DNA from: Prochlorococcus sp. AG-402-I20
GTDB lineage: Bacteria > Cyanobacteriota > Cyanobacteriia > PCC-6307 > Cyanobiaceae
Reading direction: 5' to 3'
Assembly: GCA_003216975.1 (NCBI GenBank)
Contig: QCHY01000012.1
Span: forward strand, 1-46,832
Length of the DNA stretch: 46,832 bases
Shown: positions 21,215 to 33,547 of the stretch, piece by piece
How positions within the stretch are numbered: position 1 is the stretch's first letter
Layout: every line of letters starts with the position of its first letter
Notes under the pieces: generated by a model
Seen by the model: the letters and a program-made list of their open reading frames with translations, nothing else
The model's database searches: none
What the model was told of the DNA's origin: nothing
Position numbers and translations under genes: made by a program

Positions 21215-21950
21215 TGTTCTTATTGTTAAATATGATTAATATTAATTCATGAATAATGTTTCTATGTGAATTCTTCTATTTAATTGTAATGAAAAAAAAC
21301 CTTCACAACATAGGCAAAAAATATTCAATCAAGTAGTGAATATAAGCTGTAAATATTCGTCATCCTTACTGCCCTAATAGCTTTTCTCTAGTGCTTCTTT
21401 TAGAGACTAATTGTAAGAATGGATATATGAGCAATATTTAGATCAAGTAAAAATCAATCAACAACTTGATTTTGAGATCTATAGATTGGGGATTCCCCTA
21501 CCGCTTACTTACCTCCAATGATTTTGTTTGGATGCAAAATCATGAATTTGAAACAGATAGTAGTAAGAAAAATTTTTTCAGAAATTTATTTTGATGCTCA
21601 TCAAGAAATTGCACCTTCATTGATTTCATCAGTCCAAGGATAGTCGTATTTTCCTATTGCCCCTTCATGTATCCCATCAGTCCAAGGATCGTCGTATCCA
21701 GCAAATACTGGCGCTGTTAATAATGCGCTTAAGAACAAGAGTCCCAGAATTTATTTTTTCATGTTTTTAAGTAGGGAAGTTATTTGTTCCTCAACTTCTT
21801 GTTCTGAATTATTTAAGTGATTCCAAAAGTAAAACTTGTATGAAATTGATTTATGGGAAAGAATAAATGTATTAGGAAAGTTTTGCTTGAATAGGAAATT
21901 GCAAACAGTTTTCTATTAGTTTCCTACCATTTTCATACCATATAAATTTT
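21215..21950. other. Gene-poor accessory stretch left of the island
   Basis: No intact gene of normal length is seen here. It holds a broken small secreted-peptide gene (21601-21762, minus). A nine-base hairpin lies at 21518-21543, ATGATTTTG pairing CAAAATCAT around eight bases, with no T-run. On the minus strand, an open but start-less frame immediately precedes the broken gene. Together with the fossil attachment sequence to its right, this looks like debris of an earlier insertion at the same tRNA. Confidence 0.5.
21601..21762 (-). pseudogene. Small secreted repeat peptide, broken by stop at codon 4
   Basis: Read leftward from the ATG at 21762, the frame is M-K-K-stop and then continues for 49 more residues. 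These are ILGLLFLSALLTAPVFAG (a textbook signal peptide core with an A-x-A-like cleavage site) followed by two 16-residue tandem repeats, YDDPWTDGIHEGAIGK and YDYPWTDEINEGAIS. Changing the TAA to TTA would restore MKKLILGLLFL, so a single-base nonsense change is the simplest reading. An alternative is initiation at the TTG at codon 9, giving a shorter signal. Function is unknown. The 48-base DNA repeat is still well preserved, so the break is recent or the peptide is still made some other way. Confidence 0.6.
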
Positions 21951-22048
21951 TTGAAACTTGCAACCCGCTATACATGGAGCATATTCCTAGAGAGGGTTCT
22001 CAAGAGATTTAAATATAAATTACAGAAGGCGGCACCCAGATTCGAACT
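21951..22048. repeat. Left attachment-site repeat (attL) with tRNA-Cys 3' fragment
   Basis: This 98-base block aligns without gaps to 32123-32220 with 82 identities by my count. The last 23 bases (22026-22048, beginning AAGGCGGCACCCAGATTCG) are identical and correspond to the 3' end and T-arm of tRNA-Cys. After 22048 the sequence departs from the tRNA, so this is a displaced 3' end and not a working tRNA. Confidence 0.9.
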
Positions 22049-22107
22049 AGGTCTTAAAACTGTAGAAGCATTGGTATAACTAGGTTTTTTAATTGTAAAT
22101 TTCATAC

Positions 22108-22141
22108 TTCCCCTTCTGCTCCCCTTCCATTAGAACTAATT
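22108..22141. repeat. Left-end direct repeat, candidate recombinase arm site
   Basis: TTCCCCTTC, three bases, TCCCCTTCC, then a TAGAAC about two bases on, form a pattern found again at 32091-32124 in the same orientation. Each copy lies 60-90 bases inside the element from the core. Paired nine-base sites at this distance resemble arm-type binding sites of tyrosine recombinases. Confidence 0.55.
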
Positions 22142-22259
22142 AACACAAAGGGGGGACGGTTAAACTGCGCCTATAGGTGAGGGGTCTTTTTCCAGTAAGG
22201 AAGGGGATTTCTACCCCCTAATTAACAAGAAGGGGGGTCGCATAAAGTGTCCCTATTAC
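22137..22259 (+). promoter_or_regulatory. Repeated regulatory unit upstream of the tyrosine recombinase
   Basis: Two copies of AATTAACA-two/three bases-AAGGGGGG(A/T)C occur at 22137-22157 and 22219-22239. The first is followed by GCGCCTATAGGTGAGGGG and the second by GCATAAAGTGTCCCTATT. The recombinase ATG follows directly at 22260. The same unit, in the same orientation relative to the downstream gene, is repeated three times at 30168-30340. Operator or promoter function is inferred. Confidence 0.6.
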
Positions 22260-23657
22260 ATGAACCATTCAACAGATATTTGGAATTTTGGAGCAACGTA
22301 TTACGTGCGTGATTTTGTGAAAGGTGGAACTTTCCCAACGGATCTTCGTATCTTTATTAAACCGAGTAAGAGCAAAAACATTTACGCAAAGTGGATGCCG
22401 TTGGCGAGTGAAGATCCAAGAGCAAAACAAGGAAGAATAAAAGGATCAGGAAAAACAAAAAGAACTCCGATTGAAGCGTCAATGCAAACGGACGATCCAA
22501 TGGAGGCAGCAAAAAGAGCGATTAAATGGTTTCAGAAAAAATCAAAAGACTATTCATTGTCTGTCGTTGTTGGTCATGATTATTCGCTATCTCGCTATTG
22601 GGAAATTTGGTCAGTTCGTGAGTTCGAGAAACCAAGAAGAAACAAGCAAGCAGTAATTAAATTCCGAAGAGATACACAACTAAAATGGGACGCAAATGAA
22701 TGGGGAGTTGCCAGTCAAGATTGGGCAAAGAAAAGTGTTGACGAAATAAATCATTCAGACTTTGCAGATTATTTTTCTCTGTTAGAAGCAAGAGCAAAAA
22801 AGAATAACGGATCTAATGGAAGTGGAATGAAAGAACAGCAAAAGGCATTTATTCGAGCACTAATGAAAGAGGCAAGAATTGATTTTCCAAATCTGCAAAT
22901 ACCAGACTTCCCTTCTATAAGTCGTCAAACAAAACAAGTTACGCACCTCAATCATGAGCAATGGGACTTGTTAATACGAACAGTTAAAGAGCAATGTGAT
23001 TTTGTAGTTAATAAAGAAATGAACTACAAGGGATATCAATCATTACCTTGTTCATACAAAAGAGAGAACCAACGTAATTGGGTTGATTTATACGACGCAC
23101 TTCTTTTGGAGTATTTCTTTTTTCTTCGATCAGAGGATATGAACAGACTGAAAAGTGAATGGTTCCAAGACAATGGAAAGGGCGAATACCAGTGCTTATT
23201 GGAAGAAACAAAAAAGGATAGAGATATTCATGTCACACAATCCTATCGACCTGAAGCAGACGGTTACATGAGAAGAATGAAAGAAAGAAGACCAAAAAAA
23301 GGTTATTTAATTTTCCCTTTAATGCTTCGTCCAGATCAAGGAGGAGCAGAAAATAAAGTGCGAAATCTTCTTAATCACTTACTCAAAAAAGCAGTTGAAA
23401 AATGTCTACCTGATTTTGATTTAGGAAAGAAACCTTGGACGACGATTCGCCATACAACTATTCGTCTAATGCTGGAAGACGATCCTTCCTTGTGGGTTGG
23501 ATATAAGTTGAGAGACTTTGCAGCGAATTGCCATACCTCTCCCGATCAAATACAAACCACATATATTCAACCGATACAAGCAGGACAAACTGCAAGAGAA
23601 ACACGAGAAAATCTTCGTCTTAAAGGTTGGGAGAGTGGATCAAGAGTTCGGGTTTGA
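22260..23657 (+). CDS. Tyrosine recombinase (site-specific integrase)
   Basis: This enzyme should integrate and excise the island at tRNA-Cys. The 465-residue protein has an N-terminal DNA-binding part and a C-terminal catalytic part. Box I is YFFFLRSEDMNRLKSEWF (catalytic Arg near residue 288), box II is KPWTTIRHTTIRLMLED with the R-H-T core, and the nucleophile Tyr is in QIQTTYIQPIQAG near residue 440. The first position of box II, commonly His (H-x-x-R), is Thr here, a change worth noting. The ATG abuts the repeated regulatory unit. It faces into the island from the left end, as tycheposon integrases do. Confidence 0.9.
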   Translation: MNHSTDIWNFGATYYVRDFVKGGTFPTDLRIFIKPSKSKNIYAKWMPLASEDPRAKQGRIKGSGKTKRTPIEASMQTDDPMEAAKRAIKWFQKKSKDYSLSVVVGHDYSLSRYWEIWSVREFEKPRRNKQAVIKFRRDTQLKWDANEWGVASQDWAKKSVDEINHSDFADYFSLLEARAKKNNGSNGSGMKEQQKAFIRALMKEARIDFPNLQIPDFPSISRQTKQVTHLNHEQWDLLIRTVKEQCDFVVNKEMNYKGYQSLPCSYKRENQRNWVDLYDALLLEYFFFLRSEDMNRLKSEWFQDNGKGEYQCLLEETKKDRDIHVTQSYRPEADGYMRRMKERRPKKGYLIFPLMLRPDQGGAENKVRNLLNHLLKKAVEKCLPDFDLGKKPWTTIRHTTIRLMLEDDPSLWVGYKLRDFAANCHTSPDQIQTTYIQPIQAGQTARETRENLRLKGWESGSRVRV

Positions 23658-23767
23658 GCAGCGTCAACACGAGCATGTGAATCTTTCGTTACTGCAAATA
23701 AGACAAACTTATTAGACCTAGCAGAATAGATACGAAAGCAAGCAATTCAAAAGGAAAGCAAGTTGAT

Positions 23768-25339
23768 ATGACGAAGGCAATTTGCTGGAATTGTGGAGTC
23801 TTTAAGTCAGGCAGTTTTATCCCATGCCCTAATTGCAATGCAGACCCGACAACTGAAGATGAAAGATTGATATCTCTATTTCTTACCGATCACTATCACG
23901 ATGAAGCAGCACTAAATGCTTTGCATGTTCAAATCCGTAGTGGAGGTAAAAAATATCAAATAACAGATGACTTAAGAGAAGAGATGAGACCTGCTCTTCG
24001 GATGGTCTCAAGAATGATTGGTGATGGCAAAAACAACGATACTGTTGCCAACCAAAAACAAGAAAAAATTAAACCTCAATCTAATAAGTTTTTAATTAAC
24101 CTAATACGTATTGCACTATTAGTTTTTATACCACCATTCGTATCAACTTTTGCGTGGTCTCTCTATGGAAATATCACCTTATTTGCAGATCAATTAATTC
24201 CATTTGGAAAGATCTTTGGTCAATCATTTTATTTTATTGTTGATTTTATAGGTGGAATTATTTTTGCTTATTGCATGTTTTGGACTGCATTTAAGTTAGG
24301 ACCTAAGAAAAGTTTAGAAGGTATATTATTTCCTATATCTGCATTTATCATAGATGCTTATTTGCCACAGATAAGATTTTCATTTCTAGAATTAGCAAAT
24401 TTTTCATATCTATATGCAGCATTTGCAGGTTCTCTTCTTGTTATCTTTAGTGCATGGACTAGTAAGTTAAAAGTTCTTTCTCCTATAGAGATATTAAGGA
24501 GACGAAAATCACTACAAAGAAAAGAATCAGATAAACCAGTAGACAATTTAAAGAAGGAAGAATTAATCGTAAATAACAAAGGTTTAATTAAAACAGGTAT
24601 AGATAATCGTGAAAATGAAACTGCTCAAAGATTGGTATTGCAGTCAATTGATAAGTATGTTGCAGGAGATATTGATGGTTCATTACAAGATGCAGAGAAT
24701 GGACTTGCTTTAGACAAAAGATTAGTTGTTGCTAATTTCATTATTGGTTTTATCAAGCATGCAAAAGAGGACTATCAAGGAGCAAAAGAAGCACTTGATA
24801 TAGCAATCAATTCAGGTATCGATATATCAGATAAGTTTTATTATGATGCCTATGCTTATAGAGGTTTTTGTAAAAATGCTTTTGAAGATAGTGAAGGTGC
24901 CGCAGAAGATTTCTCTAAGGCATTAGAGTTGATTCCTGATGAAATTCAGATAATCAGAGCAAGAGGAGAAGCAAGATTCGAGTCAAAGGATTATATGGGT
25001 TCATCAAAGGATCTAGAGGTTGTATATAAATCTTTTCCTGATGATATTGATAATTTACATCGTCTTTCCTATTGCAAGTTTGTCACATTAGACTACGAAG
25101 GTGCTATTGAAATTTATTATAAATTGCTAGATCTTGATAAAGAAAGGGAAGTATTAACATTATCTAATTTATCGAAGGCATTTTATAATCTAGATAACTT
25201 TGATGAAGCACTTGAATATATCGATAAAGCAAGAAGACTAGATCCAAACAATAGAAAGATTCTTGCTGAATTTCATAAAATAAGGAAAAAACATTTTAAA
25301 GATTGGAATGATAAAATGTCTGAAGAAGAAGATTCATGA
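23768..25339 (+). CDS. Zinc-ribbon, multi-membrane, TPR protein, unknown function
   Basis: The 523-residue protein has three parts. Residues 1-30 form a zinc ribbon (CWNCGVFKSGSFIPCPNC, two C-x-x-C pairs). Residues about 103-240 hold four or five hydrophobic membrane segments. After a basic linker, residues 285-510 form about six tetratricopeptide repeats, for example SLQDAENGLALDKRLVVANF and EALEYIDKARRLDPNNRKIL. This layout suggests a membrane-anchored scaffold. It is the first cargo gene after the recombinase, starting 110 bases downstream, and converges with another large membrane protein. No enzyme motif is seen, and a defence role is only a guess. Confidence 0.8.
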   Translation: MTKAICWNCGVFKSGSFIPCPNCNADPTTEDERLISLFLTDHYHDEAALNALHVQIRSGGKKYQITDDLREEMRPALRMVSRMIGDGKNNDTVANQKQEKIKPQSNKFLINLIRIALLVFIPPFVSTFAWSLYGNITLFADQLIPFGKIFGQSFYFIVDFIGGIIFAYCMFWTAFKLGPKKSLEGILFPISAFIIDAYLPQIRFSFLELANFSYLYAAFAGSLLVIFSAWTSKLKVLSPIEILRRRKSLQRKESDKPVDNLKKEELIVNNKGLIKTGIDNRENETAQRLVLQSIDKYVAGDIDGSLQDAENGLALDKRLVVANFIIGFIKHAKEDYQGAKEALDIAINSGIDISDKFYYDAYAYRGFCKNAFEDSEGAAEDFSKALELIPDEIQIIRARGEARFESKDYMGSSKDLEVVYKSFPDDIDNLHRLSYCKFVTLDYEGAIEIYYKLLDLDKEREVLTLSNLSKAFYNLDNFDEALEYIDKARRLDPNNRKILAEFHKIRKKHFKDWNDKMSEEEDS

Positions 25340-25359
25340 TTCTTTTGTTTATATAATTA

Positions 25360-26943
25360 TTAATCAGAAATTTCACGATAAATTTTATTAATTTTTTCTG
25401 CGATTGGTTTTATTTTTTCGTATGCACTTTCAGGGTTATCAGAACAATATTTTGAAATTATTGAGACAAAAAATGAGTCAACAAATTCAATCATAATCTC
25501 TGCATTATGCAAATGAGATTCCTCATCTGAGACAAATGAATAGAAAAGTGTTTTATCTAAAGGAACAACAATCTCATATGCATACCTTTCATCATACGAA
25601 GCACCTTTCTTATTTTCCATCAAATACTTAATTGTTTCCTTCCCTTTATCTAATGGGTCTGCTATCTGATTCATCAACCAAGATTGAATTACTTTCTCTT
25701 TCTGATTAATAATTCCTAGACCATTTAACACACCAACAATGATGATCATTTGTAATTGCATTATTGCAAAATAAGGTGCTCTTTTTACTGGATCATCTTT
25801 TGATACATCTTCTGCTATTTGAATCATTCTCTTTGGAATTTGGATCAGAGAATAAAAGATTATTCTTTCAATATCTTTATTCTTAATTGCTGAACCAATA
25901 GGATCTTTATCAAAAATCTCGAATTTATAAAAATCTGAAACTCTATCCATATCTTGTATGTTTTCTACAAAATCTTTTCCAAATAAAGATTCATAATGCT
26001 TCTTATTATTAAAAATACCTGCCATCCTTATTTCCTTCATTTCCACCTCATCTGTTGTTACATTAAAAGCATTAATAACAGGATATTTAGAATACTTATC
26101 TCTTACATATTCTCCTAACTTAATTGCATCTTCTAGTTTCCATTTGATAATACTTTTTATTTTATTTGGTTTTTTTGAACCAAGATCTTCTGGGAAAGAC
26201 TTTATGAAATCCTTATGAACTTCTTTTATCTCCTCTGCCTCTTTTTTTAAGTCCAATTCAATTAATAATTTAGAATCATTTACTTGCTCCTCAGGTAAAC
26301 TTTTTAGATATTCCTCCTTTTTATTTTTTCTATAAGAGTCTTGAAATTGAAATCTTTCTTTCGTGCATTCTTTTTTCATTTGTTTCTCAACCACTTCAGC
26401 AATAAAGAATGACCATGAAATATCTTCCCATCTTTTCTTTCTGATTTGTTTTATGGTTGAAACTATATCTGGGAATCTCAGATAAATTAGTTCTTCAGGT
26501 ATACCTCTTTTCTCTAATTTTCTGTAAATTGTCCAGCACTTCATATACTCTTTACCATCAAAAAAAGCATCACAAGATGCTTTTGCTTTTTCAAGTTTAC
26601 TAACCATCAATTGGTCTTCTTCACATTTAATATTCTCAGAGTTATATAAACCTTGTGCATTAACAATATCTACCGTAATACTTAATTCTCCAAGAACATC
26701 ATAAAAGGTTTTAGGTTTTACTAGGTCTTCAAATAAATTTTTATACTTTAAACTGACATCATTATTTTTCCGTGATAAATCCTTCTCTGAGTTATTAGTA
26801 TCATAAACAAGAACTGCAATAATGAATGCTGGAGGAATAAGTATCGTTGAAAATGGAAAATATGCTATTAGACAGAAAATAAAAACACCAAGAATGATAT
26901 TCCTGAAAGTTTTATTCTTAAATAATTCAGAAAGGAAATCCAT
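25360..26943 (-). CDS. Large membrane-anchored protein, unknown function
   Basis: I do not recognise this 527-residue protein. Near the N-terminus is a hydrophobic hairpin (about residues 14-48, IILGVFIFCLIAYFPFSTIL and onward). The remainder is charged and helical, with a likely coiled-coil near residues 190-250 (KKEEYLKSLPEEQVNDSKLL) and a second hydrophobic stretch, MQLQMIIIVGVLNGLGI, near residue 395. There are no known catalytic motifs. It ends 20 bases from the convergent zinc-ribbon/TPR gene, so the pair shares a terminator region. It is island cargo; AT-rich codon use is like that of its partner. Confidence 0.72.
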   Translation of the reverse strand: MDFLSELFKNKTFRNIILGVFIFCLIAYFPFSTILIPPAFIIAVLVYDTNNSEKDLSRKNNDVSLKYKNLFEDLVKPKTFYDVLGELSITVDIVNAQGLYNSENIKCEEDQLMVSKLEKAKASCDAFFDGKEYMKCWTIYRKLEKRGIPEELIYLRFPDIVSTIKQIRKKRWEDISWSFFIAEVVEKQMKKECTKERFQFQDSYRKNKKEEYLKSLPEEQVNDSKLLIELDLKKEAEEIKEVHKDFIKSFPEDLGSKKPNKIKSIIKWKLEDAIKLGEYVRDKYSKYPVINAFNVTTDEVEMKEIRMAGIFNNKKHYESLFGKDFVENIQDMDRVSDFYKFEIFDKDPIGSAIKNKDIERIIFYSLIQIPKRMIQIAEDVSKDDPVKRAPYFAIMQLQMIIIVGVLNGLGIINQKEKVIQSWLMNQIADPLDKGKETIKYLMENKKGASYDERYAYEIVVPLDKTLFYSFVSDEESHLHNAEIMIEFVDSFFVSIISKYCSDNPESAYEKIKPIAEKINKIYREISD

Positions 26944-27091
26944 TTATTTCTAATTCACTCCCATATCAATAGAAATTTTATCGGTATTGTTTTTGCAATT
27001 CATTATTCTCTCTTACCTAGTTCATCTATCTTTTCTAACTTTATAGAGTTTGCTTATTAGTTCAACAAGTCATTTGCTACTTGCATTAAAG

Positions 27092-27119
27092 AAGGGGGCA
27101 AGATTTTGGTTGCCCCCTT
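27092..27119 (-). terminator. Hairpin terminator
   Basis: AAGGGGGCAA and TTGCCCCCTT form a perfect ten-base stem around an eight-base loop. In the leftward direction it is followed by TTCTTTAA. It would end transcription of the leftward envelope-protein gene before the next leftward gene, and it could work in both directions. Confidence 0.7.
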
Positions 27120-27121
27120 TA

Positions 27122-27208
27122 AGTTCAGCACTTGTTTATCCGTGTGAACAATCCGATTCCCTTTAACTAACCACTTCCCTGACCTACGGGAAGACAAGTG
27201 CTAGAACT
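27122..27208 (-). ncRNA. Candidate structured RNA upstream of the hairpin terminator
   Basis: AGTTC-AGCACTTGT at 27122-27135 pairs with ACAAGTGCT-A-GAACT at 27194-27208, a 14-base-pair stem with one bulged base. Directly inside it lies a second hairpin, CTTCCC with GGGAAG at 27174-27193. The leftward strand then runs straight into the terminator. Whether it is a free RNA or the 3' leader of the envelope-protein message is open. Confidence 0.4.
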
Positions 27209-27261
27209 CCAACCCATTTCTAATCAAACTGAATTATTGAAGCATGAGACAAAACACCTGT

Positions 27262-27738
27262 TTAGCAATCAGCGTTAGCAATACCCATACCAAGAACAGC
27301 ACCTAAAGGAATAGACCATCCATAAGCATCTTTCTTAGATAGTGCAGCAGCAAGACCACCACCAAGCAATCCTCCTGTGGTTGCACTACTTGAACTACAA
27401 CTTCCGCCACTGGTTCTATAACTACGAGACACTAATACTTGCTGGTGAGTTGGTCTGTAATACCTGCGATGAGTGTGAGGGGAATAATGAGCATGATTAT
27501 GGTGATGACGATATTTACGAACTGGTGGTTGCCAACTAAGGGAAGAGCAAGGAACCTCAACCTTATCCAGATGAGATTTTACGTAACCCTTAGATTCTCT
27601 AGTTCCCGCAACATATTCCTCTTTATAAATTTCTTTGTAGCAAGTTCGTTGAGTTGTATATCCCCTCTGGTATTCATCTGCTATCGCTACTGTTGGTGAT
27701 ACAAGCATTGCTGCAAGTATTAGTGGTTGGAATCTCAT
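27262..27738 (-). CDS. Secreted His-rich envelope protein with glycine zipper
   Basis: The chosen start at 27738 follows a good ribosome site (AAGGAGCATC) and gives a signal peptide, MRFQPLILAAMLVSPTVAIA, then mature DEYQRGYTTQRTC. A longer frame from 27783 would add 15 residues and spoil this. The middle is rich in His, Tyr and Arg (RKYRHHHNHAHYSPHTHRRY), which suggests metal binding. The C-terminus is GGLLGGGLAAALSKKDAYGW followed by SIPLGAVLGMGIANADC, the glycine-zipper pattern of outer-membrane or envelope lipoprotein-like proteins. It has five Cys. Function unknown; it is island cargo read leftward. Confidence 0.75.
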   Translation of the reverse strand: MRFQPLILAAMLVSPTVAIADEYQRGYTTQRTCYKEIYKEEYVAGTRESKGYVKSHLDKVEVPCSSLSWQPPVRKYRHHHNHAHYSPHTHRRYYRPTHQQVLVSRSYRTSGGSCSSSSATTGGLLGGGLAAALSKKDAYGWSIPLGAVLGMGIANADC

Positions 27739-27893
27739 GATGCTCCTTACCTCTAAACAAAACATATGAAGTTTGCGACCCATTCACATCGGAATTGAGA
27801 CACTATTGGAAGTGTTTGACTCAAAAGATACTTTTATCAAAAATATATCAAGGTTTTTGTCACAAAAGTGGTGTGTTAAAAACTGTTGGATAT

Positions 27894-27993
27894 CTAATAC
27901 ACCTTTTACCTCAAATTAAACAGAACAAAATCCAGGTATTTTCATTAAATTAGTGTATTAATAAGGGTGTTTAGTTGTATTGTGCTATAAAAT
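27894..27993 (+). promoter_or_regulatory. Promoter region of the serine recombinase operon
   Basis: An extended -10 element, TGC-TATAAA at 27983-27991, lies about 30 bases before the start codon. Upstream are short related repeats: CTAATACACC (27894-27903), TTAGTGTATTA (27950-27960) and GGGTGTTTAG (27964-27973), partly in opposite orientations. They could be operators or recombination subsites. Confidence 0.45.
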
Positions 27994-28022
27994 GATAATA
28001 AGAGAGTTAGTTTCTAGCACAA

Positions 28023-28604
28023 ATGAACAAAATAATTGGGTATAGCAGAAAAAGCACTCATTCTCAGACGAATGAACCTGATGTTGCTGCCCTTAAAGAA
28101 GCAGGAGCAGAGATCGTGTTTGAGGAAAAGATAAGTTCAAGGAAAGCAGAGAAAGACAGACCCCAACTTCAGGCAGCACTTACAGCATTAAGAAGTGGAG
28201 ACGAGTTGGTTATAACCAAATTGGACAGATTAGGAAGATCTCAAGTTGAGGTTGTGAATCGCCTCCATGAATTACAGGCACAAGGAATAAATGTAAGAAC
28301 TCTGGATGGTTTGGTGAACACTGCTGGTCTAGGTCAGTTCGCACCAATCCTTATTGGTCTTCTTTCTGGTCTTGCTGAAGTAGAAAGGTCACTCATACAA
28401 GAACGCACTAGAGAGAGTGTTGCTTATAGAAGAGCAACAGGTGGAAATCTTGGAGGAAGACCAAAGACAGCACCTAAAAAAGAAAAATTGGTAATGCGTT
28501 TACGTGAAGAAGGAGAAAGTTTAAGAGGTATTCGTGAGCAAACAGGACTTGCAGTTGCCACTATTAGAAAGATCCTTGAAAGGAATAAGGAGGTGGCAGC
28601 ATGA
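28023..28604 (+). CDS. Serine recombinase (resolvase/invertase family)
   Basis: This is a site-specific recombinase of the small serine type. At 193 residues it has the catalytic start IIGYSRKSTHS with the nucleophile Ser near residue 8, VITKLDRLGRSQVEV with the conserved R-L-G-R-S, LSGLAEVERSLIQERTRES, the hinge GGNLGGRPK, and a C-terminal helix-turn-helix (REQTGLAVATIRKIL). All expected parts are present, so it looks active. Its site could be in the flanking repeats. It heads a chain of overlapping small genes; the next gene starts within its stop codon. Two recombinases of different chemistry in one island is notable. Confidence 0.92.
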   Translation: MNKIIGYSRKSTHSQTNEPDVAALKEAGAEIVFEEKISSRKAEKDRPQLQAALTALRSGDELVITKLDRLGRSQVEVVNRLHELQAQGINVRTLDGLVNTAGLGQFAPILIGLLSGLAEVERSLIQERTRESVAYRRATGGNLGGRPKTAPKKEKLVMRLREEGESLRGIREQTGLAVATIRKILERNKEVAA

Positions 28605-28795
28605 GCAAGGAAATAAAAATAATGCAAGCAATGGATGAATGTGTGGTGAATGCTTGCGAGCGAATGAAATCCCTCAATCCTGAAGATAGATTCCACCTTC
28701 TTTGTGAGATGGGTGAGTGGATGTATAACCCTCTTTCAGAAGAGATCGAAGAGGTATTGATGGTTCCTAATTTTGAAGAGGAGGAAGCAGCATGA
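28601..28795 (+). CDS. Small acidic protein (64 aa), unknown
   Basis: Its ATGA start overlaps the stop of the serine recombinase, which implies translational coupling. The product is acidic and helical (MQAMDECVVNACERMKSLNP, then a tail EEIEEVLMVPNFEEEEAA). A ribosome site, AGGAGGTGGCAGC, stands before the start. No family is recognised; acidic small proteins of this kind in mobile elements are often anti-host or DNA-mimic proteins, but that is inference. Confidence 0.7.
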   Translation: MSKEIKIMQAMDECVVNACERMKSLNPEDRFHLLCEMGEWMYNPLSEEIEEVLMVPNFEEEEAA

Positions 28796-28992
28796 CTAGA
28801 AAAAACATAGGGGGATTATCTGATTACATTGTTTTGAAAGAAGAGAAGGAAGTTATCTTTTATTTGCATAATCCCTATCCAGATTGCTTGGAAATTCCAG
28901 CAATCATGAAGCAAAGATTCCCTGATGATTACAAGAGCATAGTTACAAGTTCATTAGATGAGTTCAAGAAATATCGAGGGCAGGTGTCATGA
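28792..28992 (+). CDS. Small protein (66 aa), paralog of the next gene
   Basis: The ATGA start overlaps the previous stop, with GAGGAGGAAGCAGC as ribosome site. The core, KEVIFYLHNPYPDCLEIPAI then MKQRFPDDYKS and EFKKYRGQV, aligns with the product of the next gene (K-E-V-x-F-x-L, P-x-x-L-x-I-P, M, F-P, K, E-x-x-K-x-R-x-x-V). The two are tandem copies of one unknown family. Sizes and overlap are typical of phage or satellite operons. Confidence 0.7.
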   Translation: MTRKNIGGLSDYIVLKEEKEVIFYLHNPYPDCLEIPAIMKQRFPDDYKSIVTSSLDEFKKYRGQVS

Positions 28993-29171
28993 GTCTTCCT
29001 CCGCATTTCATAGATGAAAAGAAGAAAGAAGTGGTATTTCATCTCAAAGGAACCTTTCCAGTTCAGTTGGCAATTCCTACTTGGATGCAATCTTTTCCAA
29101 AAGGGTTTAAAGGCGTTACTTGTCGCTGCGAAGAGACCTTTTACAAGTTGAGAGCGAAAGTAAACGAGTAA
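28989..29171 (+). CDS. Small protein (60 aa), paralog of the previous gene
   Basis: It starts in an ATGA overlap and ends in a TAATG overlap with the next gene. The product has KKKEVVFHLKGTFPVQLAIP, a Trp-Met pair, FPKGFKGVTCRCEETFYKLR and a short tail, which matches the preceding gene in order and spacing. Two cysteines (CRC) are unique to this copy. Function unknown. A long leftward frame on the other strand here is a shadow. Confidence 0.7.
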   Translation: MSLPPHFIDEKKKEVVFHLKGTFPVQLAIPTWMQSFPKGFKGVTCRCEETFYKLRAKVNE

Positions 29172-29515
29172 TGCCAGTCTTGATAATTGGGTGGAGTATT
29201 TACGACAAACTCCCAGAGGAAGAGCAAAAAGAGTTTGCGTTAGTAGAGCGATATCGAACTGATTATTTTTATGAGTGCTATGAATATGAAAATGCAAAAG
29301 GGAATAAAAATTATGAGTGGAGCGATAGATGCTTCAAGAATCAAGAGGAATTATTGGAGTTCTTCGGATACGAAATGATTGAGGACTTAAATGCAGATGC
29401 CGTATACGCAAGAAGAGTAGAAACCTTTACCGATGAAGACGAACAGAAATGGATGCAGTTAAGTGATACTGGAAATCAAATTAAACTAATGGGAGCGAAG
29501 GTGAATGAATCATGA
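29171..29515 (+). CDS. Hypothetical protein (114 aa), operon member
   Basis: The ATG at 29171 shares bases with the previous stop (TAATG), so it is coupled to that gene; a longer frame from 29120 would overlap the coding sequence and is less likely. The product begins MPVLIIGWSIYDKLPEEEQK, is rich in Tyr, Glu and Asp, and has ERYRTDYFYECYEYENAKGN. No membrane or enzymatic motif is seen. Its stop overlaps the next, frameshifted, gene in ATGA fashion. Confidence 0.65.
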   Translation: MPVLIIGWSIYDKLPEEEQKEFALVERYRTDYFYECYEYENAKGNKNYEWSDRCFKNQEELLEFFGYEMIEDLNADAVYARRVETFTDEDEQKWMQLSDTGNQIKLMGAKVNES

Positions 29516-29668
29516 CCATGAGGAAATGGGAGATCAGATACAAACTCCAACAGCAAGGAAAGTATTTTTTCCTAAACTGTTGAAGCGGTGTATCAACACG
29601 AGGCAAATAAGATCTTTGATTCTGAAATGCCAAATGCGATCAGGTGTGGATCAGCAAGATCGATTTAG
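29512..29668 (+). pseudogene. Small phage-like protein with +1 frameshift
   Basis: The ATGA-coupled frame reads MTMRKWEIRYKLQQQGKYFF-LNC and then meets TGA at 29581-29583. Skipping one base there gives EAVYQHEANKIFDSEMPNAI-RCGSARSI and a stop at 29668. The joined 51-residue protein looks like one continuous small domain (K-W-E-I-R-Y-K ... E-A-x-K-I-F-D-S-E-M-P-x-A ... R). A single inserted T is the simplest cause. The end of the operon may thus be decaying. A programmed +1 shift is less likely but not excluded. Confidence 0.55.
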
Positions 29669-29674
29669 TATTAG

Positions 29675-30055
29675 TTACTCAAATTCACTAATACACCATG
29701 TTCGTTTAAGACCTTTACCTATTTGTTTCTTATTTGGGTAATAAAAACCTTCGCAAGAAATCTCTTCACCAGATTCATTAAGTCGAAATATTCCATTGAA
29801 AAATCCATATGACTCACCAACTTGATCAGCAATGCCGTCTAATACTGCTTGCGTATAGGTATCTCTAACGTCGTCATAACCTTCTTCATTCTTGTCTTGG
29901 TCCCACTCGTCAAAATCGTCACTTGATGGTTCACTAAAATAGATCCCTTCTGCAATTGATGTGTGACCATGTGTCACATTATCAATAACTTTAATCTCTT
30001 TAAGATTCCATTTCTTCATTTCCTCTAATAAAGAGGTTGATGTCAAAGTAGTCAT
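29675..30055 (-). CDS. Hypothetical acidic protein (126 aa) downstream of the repeat units
   Basis: No family is recognised. The product starts MTTLTSTSLLEEMKKWNLKE, has a very acidic centre (EPSSDDFDEWDQDKNEEGYD) and a C-terminal half with aromatic residues and GFFNGIFRLNESGEEISCEG. It carries no signal peptide. Its start lies about 113 bases after the triple regulatory repeat, which is oriented towards it as the similar repeat is towards the tyrosine recombinase. Shared control with the recombinase is inferred from this. It converges on the serine recombinase operon. Confidence 0.65.
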   Translation of the reverse strand: MTTLTSTSLLEEMKKWNLKEIKVIDNVTHGHTSIAEGIYFSEPSSDDFDEWDQDKNEEGYDDVRDTYTQAVLDGIADQVGESYGFFNGIFRLNESGEEISCEGFYYPNKKQIGKGLKRTWCISEFE

Positions 30056-30167
30056 AATAAAAGTTAGGTAGTGTTTATATCTTTCAGTAGGGTTTTAAGT
30101 CGGTTCTGATTGCTCTATCGACTTTTCAGGGATTATTGAACCCCTCATATATTCGGACAGTTTCAGA

Positions 30168-30340
30168 GTCCCCCTTTGTTGTTAATTAAGAGAGTTAAAT
30201 GAAAATTGTCCCTTCACTAGAAAGGCAATTTAAGCGTCCCCCTTTGTTGTTAATTAAAGAGTTAAGCGAAAATTGCCCCCTCACTATAGGGACACTTTAT
30301 ACGTCCCCCCTTGTTTATAATTAAGACAGTTAATCCGTGT
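30168..30340 (-). repeat. Triple repeat of the regulatory unit (67-68 base period)
   Basis: GTCCCCCTTTGTTGTTAATT begins at 30168 and again at 30236, and a variant, GTCCCCCCTTGTTTATAATT, begins at 30303. Between copies are variants of AAAATTG-CCC-TCACTATAGGGACA. A 39-base inverted match links 30286-30323 with 22219-22257. The 67-68 base period is close to six to seven helical turns. No gene lies in this stretch. A further CGCCTATAGG copy is at 30422. Confidence 0.7.
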
Positions 30341-30424
30341 TTAGAAAAAACAAATTAGAAAGTCTACAAAAGTGGGTTCATGTTGGATGTATATACAAAA
30401 ATTTCGCCAGAATATTTTTTGCGC

Positions 30425-30745
30425 CTATAGGGTCGCAAGTTCTTTTTTATATTGTCTGAAAAGAGCAGGATTATACATTGCAAGAAAGTTATGAAATGAT
30501 CTGCCACCATATATTCTCCTACATTCATTACTTCTACTCCTCATGCATATGAACTTGTAATCGTATGACCCCTGTATGGGCGTGAGAGAGGCACATTTAT
30601 TCTTTCTTGAGTCTTCGCTATCAGAGTAAATATGACAGAAAGGACAGGCAAATTTGTATGATATAAGACCATTAATCTTTTCGGTCTCAATATCATTATC
30701 AAGATAAGGAAGTATCTTATTAATATATTTCTCGGTGATGGTCAT
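30425..30745 (-). CDS. Zinc-binding protein resembling a primase zinc finger (106 aa)
   Basis: The product has CPFCHIYSDSEDSRKNKCAS in the first half, then LTPIQGSYDYKFICMRSRSN and ECRRIYGGRSFHNFLAMYNP. The order C-P-x-C, hydrophobic strand with a Cys, later Cys, then G-G and F-L resembles the CHC2 zinc ribbon at the N-terminus of DNA primases and primase-helicases of phages. It lacks the rest of a primase, so it is a free zinc-ribbon protein or a remnant. It is divergent from the right-end cluster, starting 346 bases from the next gene across a promoter region. Confidence 0.6.
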   Translation of the reverse strand: MTITEKYINKILPYLDNDIETEKINGLISYKFACPFCHIYSDSEDSRKNKCASLTPIQGSYDYKFICMRSRSNECRRIYGGRSFHNFLAMYNPALFRQYKKELATL

Positions 30746-30751
30746 ATTGAT

Positions 30752-30829
30752 TTGACAAAATGTTACTTTCTATATAGAATTACTCTGTTACGGAAGATAA
30801 GGATTGTTAAGACTTGTATATAGAAAGTA
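30752..30829 (+). promoter_or_regulatory. Strong sigma-70-type promoter with palindromic operator
   Basis: TTGACA at 30752-30757, exactly 17 bases, then TAGAAT at 30775-30780 is a near-consensus promoter facing right. The 12-base palindrome TTCTATATAGAA (30768-30779) overlaps the -10. A 13-base perfect inverted repeat, TACTTTCTATATA at 30764-30776 and TATATAGAAAGTA at 30817-30829, brackets the start point. It probably drives the right-end cluster under repressor control. Confidence 0.65.
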
Positions 30830-31090
30830 TATCCTAGAGATTTAGAAACTTATAAATATCTCTGTAGATATTGAAGGGTTCTTGTATCTAGTTTTTCTAC
30901 CAACTAATTAATAAACAACAGATAAGGCGAACGTAGTGAGCAATCACCGTAGGTGATTCAATTAGTAAATCTCTTGTAAATCAACTTGAGCGTTCTAACT
31001 ATCTACATGTAAGTCTGCGATCTAACAAGTTCCCTCAAATCTCACATGAACCTAAATAATAATTAACCATATAAGTCTTAAGTAGAAATT
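30787..31090 (+). other. Long untranslated leader before the right-end cluster
   Basis: About 300 bases lie between the strong promoter and the first start codon at 31091. No open frame of note is present. It contains a perfect hairpin, AATCACC-GTA-GGTGATT at 30942-30958, preceded by GGCGAACGTAGTGAGC. It could be a regulatory leader or a separate small RNA. Confidence 0.4.
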
Positions 31091-31276
31091 ATGTCGGAGT
31101 TCAGGCAACAAAAACAAACCTTTTGTATGCACTATCGCAAAGGTGAAGTATCCAAAATTATTCCTATTGAGCACCAATTAATGGACGAAACAGGATTTAG
31201 TAGAGCACAGATTCATAAGGAAGCAATCAAGCATTACTGGAATTCAAGGCAGCAATCAAAACTACAAATGGTATGA
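31091..31276 (+). CDS. Small basic protein (61 aa), possibly ribbon-helix-helix
   Basis: This is the first gene after the strong promoter. The product is basic, with HQLMDETGFSRAQIHKEAIK that could be the first helix and turn of a ribbon-helix-helix DNA-binding protein, although the strand before it is not classic. The next gene overlaps its stop (ATGA). It would suit a repressor of its own promoter or an accessory excision factor, but this is inference only. Confidence 0.55.
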   Translation: MSEFRQQKQTFCMHYRKGEVSKIIPIEHQLMDETGFSRAQIHKEAIKHYWNSRQQSKLQMV

Positions 31277-31404
31277 CTATGAAAACGCTAAAAGTGAATC
31301 CAGTTGCCTATCAAATGGCAATCGAAGCAAGTAAGAAGAAACGCAAAAATTTAGAGAATTACGTTGCAGATTTAATTCAAGCAGATTATTCAGGAGGTAA
31401 ATAA
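31273..31404 (+). CDS. Small ribbon-helix-helix-like protein (43 aa)
   Basis: It begins at an ATGA overlap (a second ATG is two codons on, at 31279) and ends in TAATG. The product MTMKTLKVNPVAYQMAIEAS continues KKKRKNLENYVADLIQADY. This fits the short strand, helix A (AYQMAIEASKKKR), turn with Asn, and helix B (LENYVADLI) of the Arc/MetJ fold. Coupling on both sides supports a real gene. It is likely a DNA-binding regulator or excision-type factor of the island. Confidence 0.6.
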   Translation: MTMKTLKVNPVAYQMAIEASKKKRKNLENYVADLIQADYSGGK

Positions 31405-31661
31405 TGGACACCAGACAGGAAAGAACAAGGCAAGATGCCAAACAGTGGAACAGTCAGATTGGGAAGATCTATTACCACCGATGCGAAGACAATCCGAATT
31501 ACTTCAGAAGTATCAGGATTTGGCATAACCCTTGGACAGGTGCTAACCAACCGCAAATATCAGAGGCAGTTTATGGAGAACCACCTGACAATCTTGAACC
31601 AATACCAAAGTTGATGCTCTCAAGGTTGATGCGTTTACAGAGCATGAGTGCATTCCATTGA
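31404..31661 (+). CDS. Hypothetical protein (85 aa), operon member
   Basis: A strong ribosome site, AGGAGGTAAATA, precedes an ATG that overlaps the previous stop codon. The product, starting MDTRQERTRQDAKQWNSQIG, is rich in Arg, Gln, Trp and Tyr, with HRCEDNPNYFRSIRIWHNPW in the middle. No family is recognised. Position between two DNA-binding-like proteins suggests a role in element maintenance, without any direct evidence. Confidence 0.6.
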   Translation: MDTRQERTRQDAKQWNSQIGKIYYHRCEDNPNYFRSIRIWHNPWTGANQPQISEAVYGEPPDNLEPIPKLMLSRLMRLQSMSAFH

Positions 31662-31662
31662 T

Positions 31663-31938
31663 ATGAATATTTCAGGAGAAACTTATATTCGTCTGACTGA
31701 AGAAGACAGAGGAAAATTGGATGTGGTGCAGTCAAGTATTGAAGAGTCCACAACCCACCGACAATTAGTTAGAGGTGCTATTGACCATTTCTATTGCAAT
31801 GCTCTTCGCTTCCTTTATAGAGATGGTGAACTTACGGATGAAGGTTTAGAGAATGGATTAAGTCATGTTGAAGATTGGATGGCAGAGAAAACAATGAAGG
31901 AGATTGCTGCAGATATGGAAGAAATAAATAGTAAGTAG
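31663..31938 (+). CDS. Ribbon-helix-helix-like protein (91 aa)
   Basis: The ATG at 31663 lies one base after the preceding TGA; an earlier in-frame ATG at 31648 is possible. The product MNISGETYIRLTEEDRGKLD then has VVQSSIEESTTHRQLVRGAI and DHFYCNALRF. The strand T-Y-I-R-L followed by two helices separated by S-T-T fits the ribbon-helix-helix pattern. A further acidic helix ends the protein. It is the last gene of the right-end cluster, followed 40 bases on by a perfect terminator. Confidence 0.6.
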   Translation: MNISGETYIRLTEEDRGKLDVVQSSIEESTTHRQLVRGAIDHFYCNALRFLYRDGELTDEGLENGLSHVEDWMAEKTMKEIAADMEEINSK

Positions 31939-31978
31939 GCACACTTCTGTGGAATTAAAATCTAAATTCTTCTTTGCT

Positions 31979-32013
31979 GTCCTGACTCTTCTGCCTAGTG
32001 AGTCAGGACTTTT
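31979..32013 (+). terminator. Rho-independent terminator of the right-end cluster
   Basis: GTCCTGACTC (31979-31988) pairs perfectly with GAGTCAGGAC (32000-32009), with an 11-base loop, and is followed by TTTTCTTTT. It closes the right-end operon before the attachment site and would shield the following core gene from island transcripts. Confidence 0.85.
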
Positions 32014-32090
32014 CTTTTGATTAATAGCGAGGGAAGGGGAAATCTGGGAAGATAGGAAATAATTACAGTTTGGGCGAATTAATAATTAAA

Positions 32091-32124
32091 TTCCCCTTCC
32101 TATCCCCTTCCGCTAGAACCTATT
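32091..32124. repeat. Right-end direct repeat, candidate recombinase arm site
   Basis: TTCCCCTTC, CTA, TCCCCTTCC and TAGAAC match the left copy at 22108-22141 in the same orientation (about 27 of 34 positions). It ends about 75 bases from the core of the right attachment site. A weaker relative appears at 21920-21945, left of the island. Confidence 0.55.
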
Positions 32125-32220
32125 GAAACTTGCTACCCGCTACACATGGAGCATAGTGCTGGGAAGGTTTCTCAAGAAATTAAAGCGTAAATTAGTAAAG
32201 GCGGCACCCAGATTCGAACT
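32123..32220. repeat. Right attachment-site repeat (attR), overlapping tRNA-Cys
   Basis: This is the partner of 21951-22048. Its last 23 bases (32198-32220) are the identical core and lie within the 3' half of tRNA-Cys. The preceding 75 bases are the element end and are also similar to chromosomal DNA on the far side of the island. Confidence 0.9.
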
Positions 32221-32269
32221 GGGGATAAAGGATTTGCAATCCTCTGCCTTACCACTTGGCCATGCCGCC
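32199..32269 (-). tRNA. tRNA-Cys (anticodon GCA), island integration site
   Basis: Read leftward, the acceptor stem pairs GGCGGCA with TGCCGCC. The anticodon stem GAGGA/TCCTT encloses loop TTGCAAA, giving anticodon GCA, and the T-arm has loop TTCGAAT in CCCAG/CTGGG. The gene is intact at 71 nucleotides including discriminator U at 32199. Its 3' end is the 23-bp core repeated at 22026-22048. CCA is not encoded. Confidence 0.96.
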
Positions 32270-32326
32270 GATAATGAAATTTTCATTACCAACCCAAATC
32301 GTATCAGTCAAACCGAACAAAATCTT

Positions 32327-33547
32327 TTGTTTCTTTGTAATGGACATGGAGAAGACACGATTGCTTGCAGGCTTATAGAGGCTTTACATGAAATTAATCC
32401 AGATATTTCCCATGAAGTTCTCCCTATGGTTGGAGATGGGAAAGTGTTTGCAAAGTTTGTCCAAGAAGGATGGCTTTCCAAAATTGGTCACCAAAAAGTT
32501 TTGCCAAGCGGTGGATTCAGTAATCAGAGTTTTAGTGGTTTGTTTTTAGATTTAAAAGCTGGATTATTAGCAAGTCTTTGGAGGCAATGGACTTTGATTC
32601 ATAGATCAGCCAAAGAGGGAAGATTTATCGTTGCAGTTGGAGATTTATTACCTCTTCTTTTTGCATGGGCTAGTGGGGCAAATTATGTTTTTATTGGCAC
32701 TCCTAAAAGTGATTACACATGGGCCAGTGGGCCAAGATCAGCTTTGAGTGATTGTTACCATCGATTGAAAGGAACTGAGTGGGATCCATGGGAATATTGG
32801 TTGATGCGATCTACTCGTTGCAGGATGGTTGCAGTAAGAGACAAAATCACTGCTAGAGGTTTGAGGAATCATGGTGTAAAGGCACTATCTCCCGGAAATC
32901 CAATGATGGATGGACTTTCTAAGGGAGAATGCCCTAAAGATTTTAGAAAATATAGACGTTTGATTTTGTTATGTGGAAGTCGTTTACCTGAGGCGTATCA
33001 GAATTTTAAAAAACTTCTATTTGCAATCCAGCTGATACAAATTTCATCTTCTATTGCAGTATTTGTGCCTTTAAGTTCTTCTTCAATGAGAAAAAAAATA
33101 GAATTTATCTTGATTGATTCAGGTTTTAAGTCTACGTATCAGTCAACAGGTGAAAATGGGATTTCCGAAACTTGGGAAAAAAATTCATTAATTATATTGA
33201 TTGGCTTTAACCAATTTTCTTCTTGGGCTAATTGGGGAGAAGTAGGAGTTGCTAATGCAGGTACAGCTACAGAACAATTAGTAGGTTTAGGTATCCCATG
33301 CGTTTCCTTGCCAGGTAATGGACATCAGTTTAATTTCAATTTTGCTAAGCGTCAAAGTCGTTTATTAGGCGGTGCGGTAGCTATTGCTAAGGGATATGAA
33401 ACTCTCGCAAATCAAGTTGGGTTTTTATTGAAGTCCGACTTTGATAGAGAGAGTATTGGTTTAAGAGGGGCTAAAAGAATGGGTTCAGAGGGTGGAAGCC
33501 ATGCTATAGCTCATAGTATTTTAACTCGATTGTCGGAGGGTTCATAG
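32327..33547 (+). CDS. Lipid-A-disaccharide synthase-related protein (LpxB-like glycosyltransferase)
   Basis: It resembles the cyanobacterial LpxB-related family (GT-B fold) whose substrate is not established. It has FLCNGHGEDTIACRLIEALH at the N-terminus, VAVGDLLPLLFAWASGANYV, ALSPGNPMMDGL and the C-terminal NAGTATEQLVGLGIPCVSLP with PGNGHQFN. The frame is open into tRNA-Cys with no stop, but a start inside the tRNA is not credible. No ATG lies between the tRNA and the first conserved motif. I therefore use TTG at 32327 (406 residues); ATT or ATC codons a little upstream are alternatives. Its upstream DNA is now the island end. Confidence 0.8.
   Translation: MFLCNGHGEDTIACRLIEALHEINPDISHEVLPMVGDGKVFAKFVQEGWLSKIGHQKVLPSGGFSNQSFSGLFLDLKAGLLASLWRQWTLIHRSAKEGRFIVAVGDLLPLLFAWASGANYVFIGTPKSDYTWASGPRSALSDCYHRLKGTEWDPWEYWLMRSTRCRMVAVRDKITARGLRNHGVKALSPGNPMMDGLSKGECPKDFRKYRRLILLCGSRLPEAYQNFKKLLFAIQLIQISSSIAVFVPLSSSSMRKKIEFILIDSGFKSTYQSTGENGISETWEKNSLIILIGFNQFSSWANWGEVGVANAGTATEQLVGLGIPCVSLPGNGHQFNFNFAKRQSRLLGGAVAIAKGYETLANQVGFLLKSDFDRESIGLRGAKRMGSEGGSHAIAHSILTRLSEGS

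Follow-up and report, generated by a model that had tools for sequence, protein, structure and literature searches.

The stretch of DNA analysed here (the window) covers 46,832 nucleotides of Prochlorococcus sp. AG-402-I20, contig QCHY01000012.1. It contains an integrative element that is located at the gene for the cysteine transfer RNA (tRNA-Cys) and encodes a tyrosine recombinase. This tRNA-Cys lies antisense within the 5' coding part of a gene related to lipid-A-disaccharide synthase, and the att (attachment) segment of the element covers part of both genes. The features on which the argument rests are as follows.

21951..22048, plus strand: attL, made up of 23 bp of tRNA-Cys 3' end and a 75-bp 5' coding block that stayed behind, with a TTG start and the frame preserved; the open reading frame (ORF) of attL ends 15 codons beyond the boundary
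22026..22048, minus strand: crossover segment; left one of the two 23-bp tRNA-Cys 3' end copies
22108..22128, plus strand: left putative arm-type pair, TTCCCCTTC and CTCCCCTTC, starts 11 bp apart
22199..22207, minus strand: left inverted putative arm-type site, GGAAGGGGA
22260..23657, plus strand: tyrosine recombinase, 465 amino acids; R290, K318, R397 and Y435 are invariant in 17 aligned sequences and H425 is found in 12 of the 17
32032..32040, minus strand: right inverted putative arm-type site, GGAAGGGGA
32091..32111, plus strand: right putative arm-type pair, TTCCCCTTC and ATCCCCTTC, starts 11 bp apart; some 11 bp separate its end from the start codon
32123..32220, plus strand: attR, consisting of the tRNA 3' end and, for the opposite-strand gene, a TTG start and coding block supplied by the element
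32199..32269, minus strand: intact tRNA-Cys(GCA), its 3' end attributed to the element
32123..33547, plus strand: lipid-A-disaccharide-synthase-related gene (TIGR03492); the entire tRNA lies antisense within its reading frame

The ends of the element are marked by a perfect 23-bp repeat of the tRNA-Cys 3' end at 22026-22048 and 32198-32220. In the host assembly (1.70 Mb, 92% complete), a 20-bp part of this repeat is found with at most one mismatch only at these two places, and the reversed control pattern is not found at all. The interior (22049-32198) is 10,150 bp long and holds about 15 ORFs. Its guanine-plus-cytosine content is the same as that outside (35.4% compared with 35.3% and 36.1% in the flanks). 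ARAGORN recognizes the whole tRNA at 32199-32269 on the minus strand, and an Rfam search of 21500-32800 with expectation values (E) up to 1 finds nothing besides tRNA. The repeat is longer than first noted: it spans 98 bp, consisting of the 23 bp of tRNA end and an outer 75 bp with 79% identity.

Among genomes of the same genus, 30 loci hold the right-hand gene. In 20 of these the site is empty, and the native left flank reaches to 6 bp or less from the block beside the tRNA. In the remaining 10, the window included, an element or extra sequence is present; G036 (related genomes are given as G numbers), for example, has a clean 12.8-kb element. Other species and genera have related elements at this site. 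The recombinase itself is patchy: 37 of 41 genomes of the genus, some of them incomplete, lack a match. An earlier note on this DNA had described a complete tRNA-Cys-borne integrative island with both ends placed to the base, an inward-facing tyrosine recombinase at the left, an intact tRNA at the right and about 15 genes inside, and it had suggested looking for an empty tRNA-Cys site in other Prochlorococcus genomes. All of this is borne out. The empty sites, the related elements at the same site, the recombinase fold described below and the patchy presence of the recombinase support the island well.

The recombinase ORF faces inward and starts 212 bp inside the left repeat. It has the fold of a lambda-Int-like tyrosine recombinase, with an N-terminal arm-binding domain followed by core-binding and catalytic domains. 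Sequence profiles hardly reach it. No Pfam recombinase family is matched by it or by its 16 aligned relatives, only two PHROGs match it (E 0.22 and 0.35), and a profile search against PDB sequences gives three matches (best E 0.38), none of them a recombinase. Three of the 17 recombinases match DUF6538 weakly (best E 0.064), a domain known from the N-terminus of phage integrases. The closest relative is in G051 (70-72%). The 13 relatives with both ends located are all found at tRNA-Cys or tRNA-Phe, and in the recombinase tree the 10 Cys rows are separated from the four Phe rows by one weakly supported branch (41/72). At the G221 locus, on a short contig, only a tRNA-Val is present; at those of G308, G155 and G304 no tRNA is seen.

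Could such an element be a satellite that moves in phage capsids? Its size (6-13 kb in the 13 elements) would suit this, no structural genes are recognised, and one cargo gene has cyanophage relatives. Recombinase relatives, however, are absent from phage records as well as from plasmids, and none appeared in two pattern-based scans of IMG/VR, which used short peptide patterns and could miss relatives; in one of these scans 17 stretches fitted the pattern and none was a relative. Two other ORFs have no phage match either, and no packaging gene is found in the ORFs scanned beyond a chance-level match. On these scans a phage satellite is unlikely.

In 12 of the 13 elements, each end carries a 9-bp site twice, at a spacing of exactly 11 bp. 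The sequence of the site varies from element to element. Such pairs at both ends were found in none of 300 shuffles made for each element, shuffles that preserve base composition only. An inverted third copy is found in eight of the 12, at a distance of 56-58 bp on the left and 47-49 bp on the right. These distances are 81 and 58 bp in the window and 69 and 57 bp in G036; in two related elements at tRNA-Phe, L076 and L077 (L numbers denote loci), the inverted copy is weak or missing. The natural reading is that the pairs are putative arm-type binding sites of a bivalent recombinase. Paired arm-like sites at both ends seem to be unreported in the literature searchable here. The exception among the 13 is L072 (G203), where the right pair CCCCTACA is unlike the left pair TTACCTACC; this is perhaps a hybrid of two elements.

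The island might also have decayed and become fixed, its repeats being kept by tRNA function alone. In favour of this, 10 of the 30 loci, that of the window among them, have fills or extra sequence where the others are empty, and several integrase relatives have internal stops (e.g., G142, G304, and G299). The recombinase of the window, in contrast, is full length with its key residues kept, the two arm pairs of the window match each other, and the 23-bp repeat is still perfect. An immobile island is improbable, though about as well placed as the satellite.

The outer 75 bp of the long repeat correspond to a start codon and 24 further codons. This block adjoins tRNA-Cys in all 20 genus loci that were first aligned. 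Its coding capacity was examined in 30 genus loci, taken from the 35 genomes with a match among 41; the block sets also include the right-hand block of G016, and the four left-behind blocks are excluded from the sets used for the ratio of nonsynonymous to synonymous polymorphism (pN/pS). In 30 of 30 loci, only one frame of the six is without stops in the block. Codon 1 is TTG in 30 of the 31 copies and GTG in the other. pN/pS is 0.34 for the 31 copies, and none of 1000 column permutations gives a value as low. In 70 of 70 loci, the frame goes on beyond the block, crosses the tRNA over its full length in antisense and enters the lipid-A-disaccharide-synthase-related gene. Matches to this gene occur in 385 of 400 genomes of the family, a few of them weak and perhaps to paralogues.

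Loci from other genera of this family were sorted by amino-acid motif: nine of 40 have a type A block, 26 have a type B block and five have neither. An ATG is found shortly upstream of the motif in 23 of the 26 type B loci. The 12-codon core of type B has a pN/pS of 0.17 (26 sequences), a value lowered because the rows were picked on an amino-acid motif. The chromosomal att site of these lineages is therefore part of two genes simultaneously, and the missing part of each is carried by the element.

The block may also be conserved as DNA instead of codons, for example as the spacer between arm and core sites of attP or as the 3' flank of the tRNA. Its place, flanked exactly by the arm pair and the crossover segment, would suit this, and no long opposite-strand ORF is present there in Phe-site elements. 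Against it stand the third-position bias, the lack of stops, the TTG or GTG at codon 1 and the permutation result, which are also seen in empty sites without an element. The low pN/pS of type B points the same way, although the motif picking lowers pN. We consider that this explanation has little chance of being correct.

If the block is coding, insertion would supply an in-frame start and N-terminal codons at attR, as judged by sequence only. The two ends of the elements agree with this. In the type A/B elements (those of the window, G036, G051, and G068), the left ORF stops 8-15 codons beyond the boundary, and the right one continues for 447-449. The attL block of G036 has a mean identity of 0.86 to empty-site blocks and 0.74 to element-side blocks; for its attR block these values are 0.79 and 0.85. 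In a tree of the blocks, a supported branch (97/97) unites 17 of the 20 empty-site copies with those left behind in G036 and G022; no element-side copy belongs to it. The left-behind block of G022 holds a stop codon. In G051, the supplied start differs in sequence from the start left behind. Both block types are found within each of the genera g4, g17, and g40, as expected if insertions swap the start of the gene. G142, a type A genome of g40, has a broken integrase about 7 kb away.

The following mechanism would fit these data. At each end of the element, the lambda-Int-like recombinase would bind the pair of arm sites. The 3' end of tRNA-Cys present in attP would recombine with the same sequence in the chromosome, a reaction read from the empty and filled sites. 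In type A/B lineages this segment appears to be two-layered, being the 3' end of the tRNA on the minus strand and early codons of the lipid-A-disaccharide-synthase-related gene on the plus strand. The element would carry the tRNA 3' end and, upstream, its own start codon with 24 further codons. Since it carries both parts, the tRNA and the gene would each be made whole at attR, and the former gene start would remain, severed, at attL. The element would also bring a new upstream region. Insertion thus appears to break neither the tRNA nor the gene and to give the gene a new beginning. Where the supplied start belongs to another sequence type, insertion could also swap the N-terminus of the protein.

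Several observations weigh against this interpretation. Possible start codons exist between the tRNA and the conserved core in 60 of 70 loci, and translation could begin downstream. Six other Cys-site elements (in G130, G114, G203, which is Synechococcus UW105, G069, which is Prochlorococcus MIT 0701, G170, and G044) have neither type A nor type B blocks, and several of them have terminator-like hairpins beyond the tRNA, as seen by eye. The right-hand frame still enters the gene in five of the six, but in G130 it is not continuous. Since these elements lack such blocks, the coding claim is limited to type A/B lineages. As for the origin of the blocks, the attR block of G036 is equally near the empty-site copy of G017 and the element-side copy of G006 (both 0.93), and three of the 20 empty-site copies (G003, G017, and G019) are outside the native branch. 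The left-behind copies of the window and of G016 are outside it too; that of the window sits behind an older relic and is not a simple native copy. Finally, we infer excision, transfer and translation of the block from the sequence. Taking these points together, we give a probability of about 0.8 to the interpretation of the island as an integrative element belonging to the tRNA-Cys/tRNA-Phe integrase kind, with a two-layered type A/B site and with the tRNA and the gene start both rebuilt by the element at attR.

An integrase family of this kind has been described. According to the accessible part of PMC10187409, a picocyanobacterial integrase family (cluster158946) has tRNA-Cys or tRNA-Phe nearby and is placed apart from tycheposon integrases; its site is inferred there from proximity and its mechanism is called not yet known. 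The element of the window resembles that described in PMC10187409 in its picocyanobacterial host, its divergent tyrosine integrase beyond the reach of Pfam and PHROGs, its variable cargo, the tRNA-Cys or tRNA-Phe beside the integrase and the small serine recombinase, which is frequent and not obligatory. This likeness is one of traits. What differs from that account, as far as it could be consulted, is that att boundaries, empty sites, arm-like sites and an overlapping coding block are given here. The earlier note had called the island tycheposon-like, and a tycheposon that happens to use tRNA-Cys would share the Prochlorococcus host, the tRNA site, the tyrosine recombinase near one end and the odd cargo, tycheposons being described in the accessible part of a secondary paper as tRNA-bordered islands with such a recombinase; judged by traits and by the published description, membership is nevertheless rejected as very improbable, since the tree in PMC10187409 sets the Cys/Phe integrase family apart, neither the recombinase nor its 16 relatives match a Pfam recombinase family and the window recombinase has only the two weak PHROG matches.

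Replacement of a gene start by an inserting element is already known. The dusA-specific elements (IMEVchUSA3) and SXT at prfC insert in the 5' end of a gene and, like the element of the window, bring a new upstream region and an in-frame new N-terminus, as described in the consulted part of PMC8409611. Their sites are protein genes, whereas the att segment of the window serves a tRNA and a protein gene on the opposite strand. Furthermore, dusA expression was measured (PMC8409611), whereas that of the target gene here is predicted from sequence. Another related case is that of tRNA-dependent lysogeny phages. These share with the window element an attB over a tRNA, a tyrosine integrase and putative arm-type site pairs flanking the attP core; unlike it, they do not rebuild the tRNA, a whole one being brought in, and the accessible part of their description mentions no rebuilding of an opposite-strand host gene (PMC10865867). 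A literature search, to which subscription papers were mostly out of reach, found no report of an element that rebuilds a tRNA and an opposite-strand gene together. Within the searchable literature, we would call this joint rebuilding, and the geometry of the arm sites, new.

The remaining features of the locus are listed below.

21459..21950, no strand assigned: relic, probably an older element's right end; arm-like TTTCCTACC at 21920 and TTTCATACC at 21931, 11 bp apart
22137..22256, plus strand: repeat of about 40 bp, two copies just upstream of the recombinase
23768..25339, plus strand: membrane protein with C-terminal tetratricopeptide repeats (TPR); the TPR by match, the membrane and zinc-ribbon-like parts by eye
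25360..26943, minus strand: 527-amino-acid protein, no family found; matched in 3 of 400 family genomes, its own included
27262..27783, minus strand: glycine-zipper-like protein; PHROG 767, E=3.5e-23; glycine-zipper match weak, E=0.11
28023..28604, plus strand: small serine recombinase of the resolvase/invertase type; PF00239, E=3.8e-30
28601..29515, plus strand: four small ORFs in a run with the serine recombinase; starts at 28601, 28792, 28989 and 29171
29675..30055, minus strand: 126-amino-acid ORF, no family found
30151-30323, minus strand: repeat of about 40 bp, three further copies, inverted, upstream of the 126-amino-acid ORF (TAATTAACAACAAAGGGGGACG...)
30425..30745, minus strand: 106-amino-acid cysteine-rich protein, zinc-finger-like (motif by eye); relatives in the G051, G068 and G308 loci
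31091..31276, plus strand: 61-amino-acid protein modelled with two helices; conserved in both Cys- and Phe-site elements
31279..31938, plus strand: three small ORFs near the right end, of 41, 85 and 91-96 amino acids
31838..32122, plus strand: right end common to the window element and a relic in G006, 93% identical DNA

The site has a history of earlier insertions. In G006, a relic at the same site consists of 285 bp of the right end of the window element, with 93% DNA identity. In the window, the stretch outside the left repeat (21459-21950) is also foreign to the empty site: compared with empty-site relatives, the native flank aligns through 21458 and picks up again at about 21948. Since this stretch is not native and holds an arm-like pair of another sequence, it is probably the right end of an element that preceded the present one. 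Within it, 21608-21697 contains two 42-bp copies, 86% alike and 48 bp apart. A separate observation concerns G023, which has a tRNA-Phe element of this family and, at tRNA-Cys, extra sequence with arm-like repeats (L079, L055).

The cargo set, which the earlier note did not recognise, is partly recognisable: some of its proteins still match no family, and parts of the serine-recombinase run are found at other loci of related genomes. Of the 19 other recombinase loci searched, 13 also have a small serine recombinase. The o60-o131 pair of ORFs from the run is found in 5 of 5 genus genomes examined, without this tyrosine recombinase. The whole run is found in G007, where o131 is present twice, and, with a distant serine recombinase, in G016, where it adjoins distant relatives of the TPR and 527-amino-acid proteins. 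The run (28023-29515) is possibly a mobile module of its own. The ORFs o66 and o131, which are about 90% identical between genera, were considered as a backbone of the element and rejected; o131 is matched in 31 of 41 genus genomes (its own included, several weakly), often at other loci, and for this reason they are not diagnostic. The ORFs of 66 and 60 amino acids (28792-29171) look like tandem paralogues, each matching the place of the other in related loci.

The glycine-zipper-like protein has relatives in 210 cyanophage records, where it is often annotated as cAMP phosphodiesterase. No relative of the 106-amino-acid cysteine-rich protein is found in phage records. The 61-amino-acid protein is a candidate directionality factor or regulator; its fold matches have E values of 2.5 or worse, Arc and ParD among them, and the ribbon-helix-helix fold is a lead only. 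The five repeats of about 40 bp, which have weaker single matches in the G051 and G068 loci, are possibly operators or promoters, and a stretch within them may resemble a T7 promoter. Conjugation families are absent from scans of ORF subsets with Pfam, PHROGs, NCBIfam, and PADLOC, the 41- and 85-amino-acid right-end ORFs being outside these scans. The PADLOC scan covered eight ORFs and gave one match (E 0.018), taken as chance. The sole match to a structural phage family is that of the DNA-binding end of the serine recombinase to a terminase small subunit family (E 0.1), which is at chance level. The absence of phage structural and conjugation genes reported in the earlier note is therefore confirmed for the subsets scanned.

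A broader proposal, to which we give slightly less than an even chance, is that the tRNA-Cys site of small-genome Prochlorococcus is an N-terminus-swapping locus. Successive elements would replace the promoter, the start and the first 25 or so codons of the gene, the tRNA being rebuilt each time, and the block types in g4, g17, and g40 would record past insertions. If this is true, one att segment must satisfy the recombinase, the tRNA and the protein at once. An integrase family whose mechanism had been stated as unknown now has named ends, a crossover segment, arm-like sites and empty sites, and therefore its excision, integration and host range are directly testable. The element also adds a case of a single attachment site common to a tRNA and a protein gene on the opposite strand. 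It suggests that the N-terminus of a gene widespread in abundant marine phototrophs is repeatedly edited by mobile elements.

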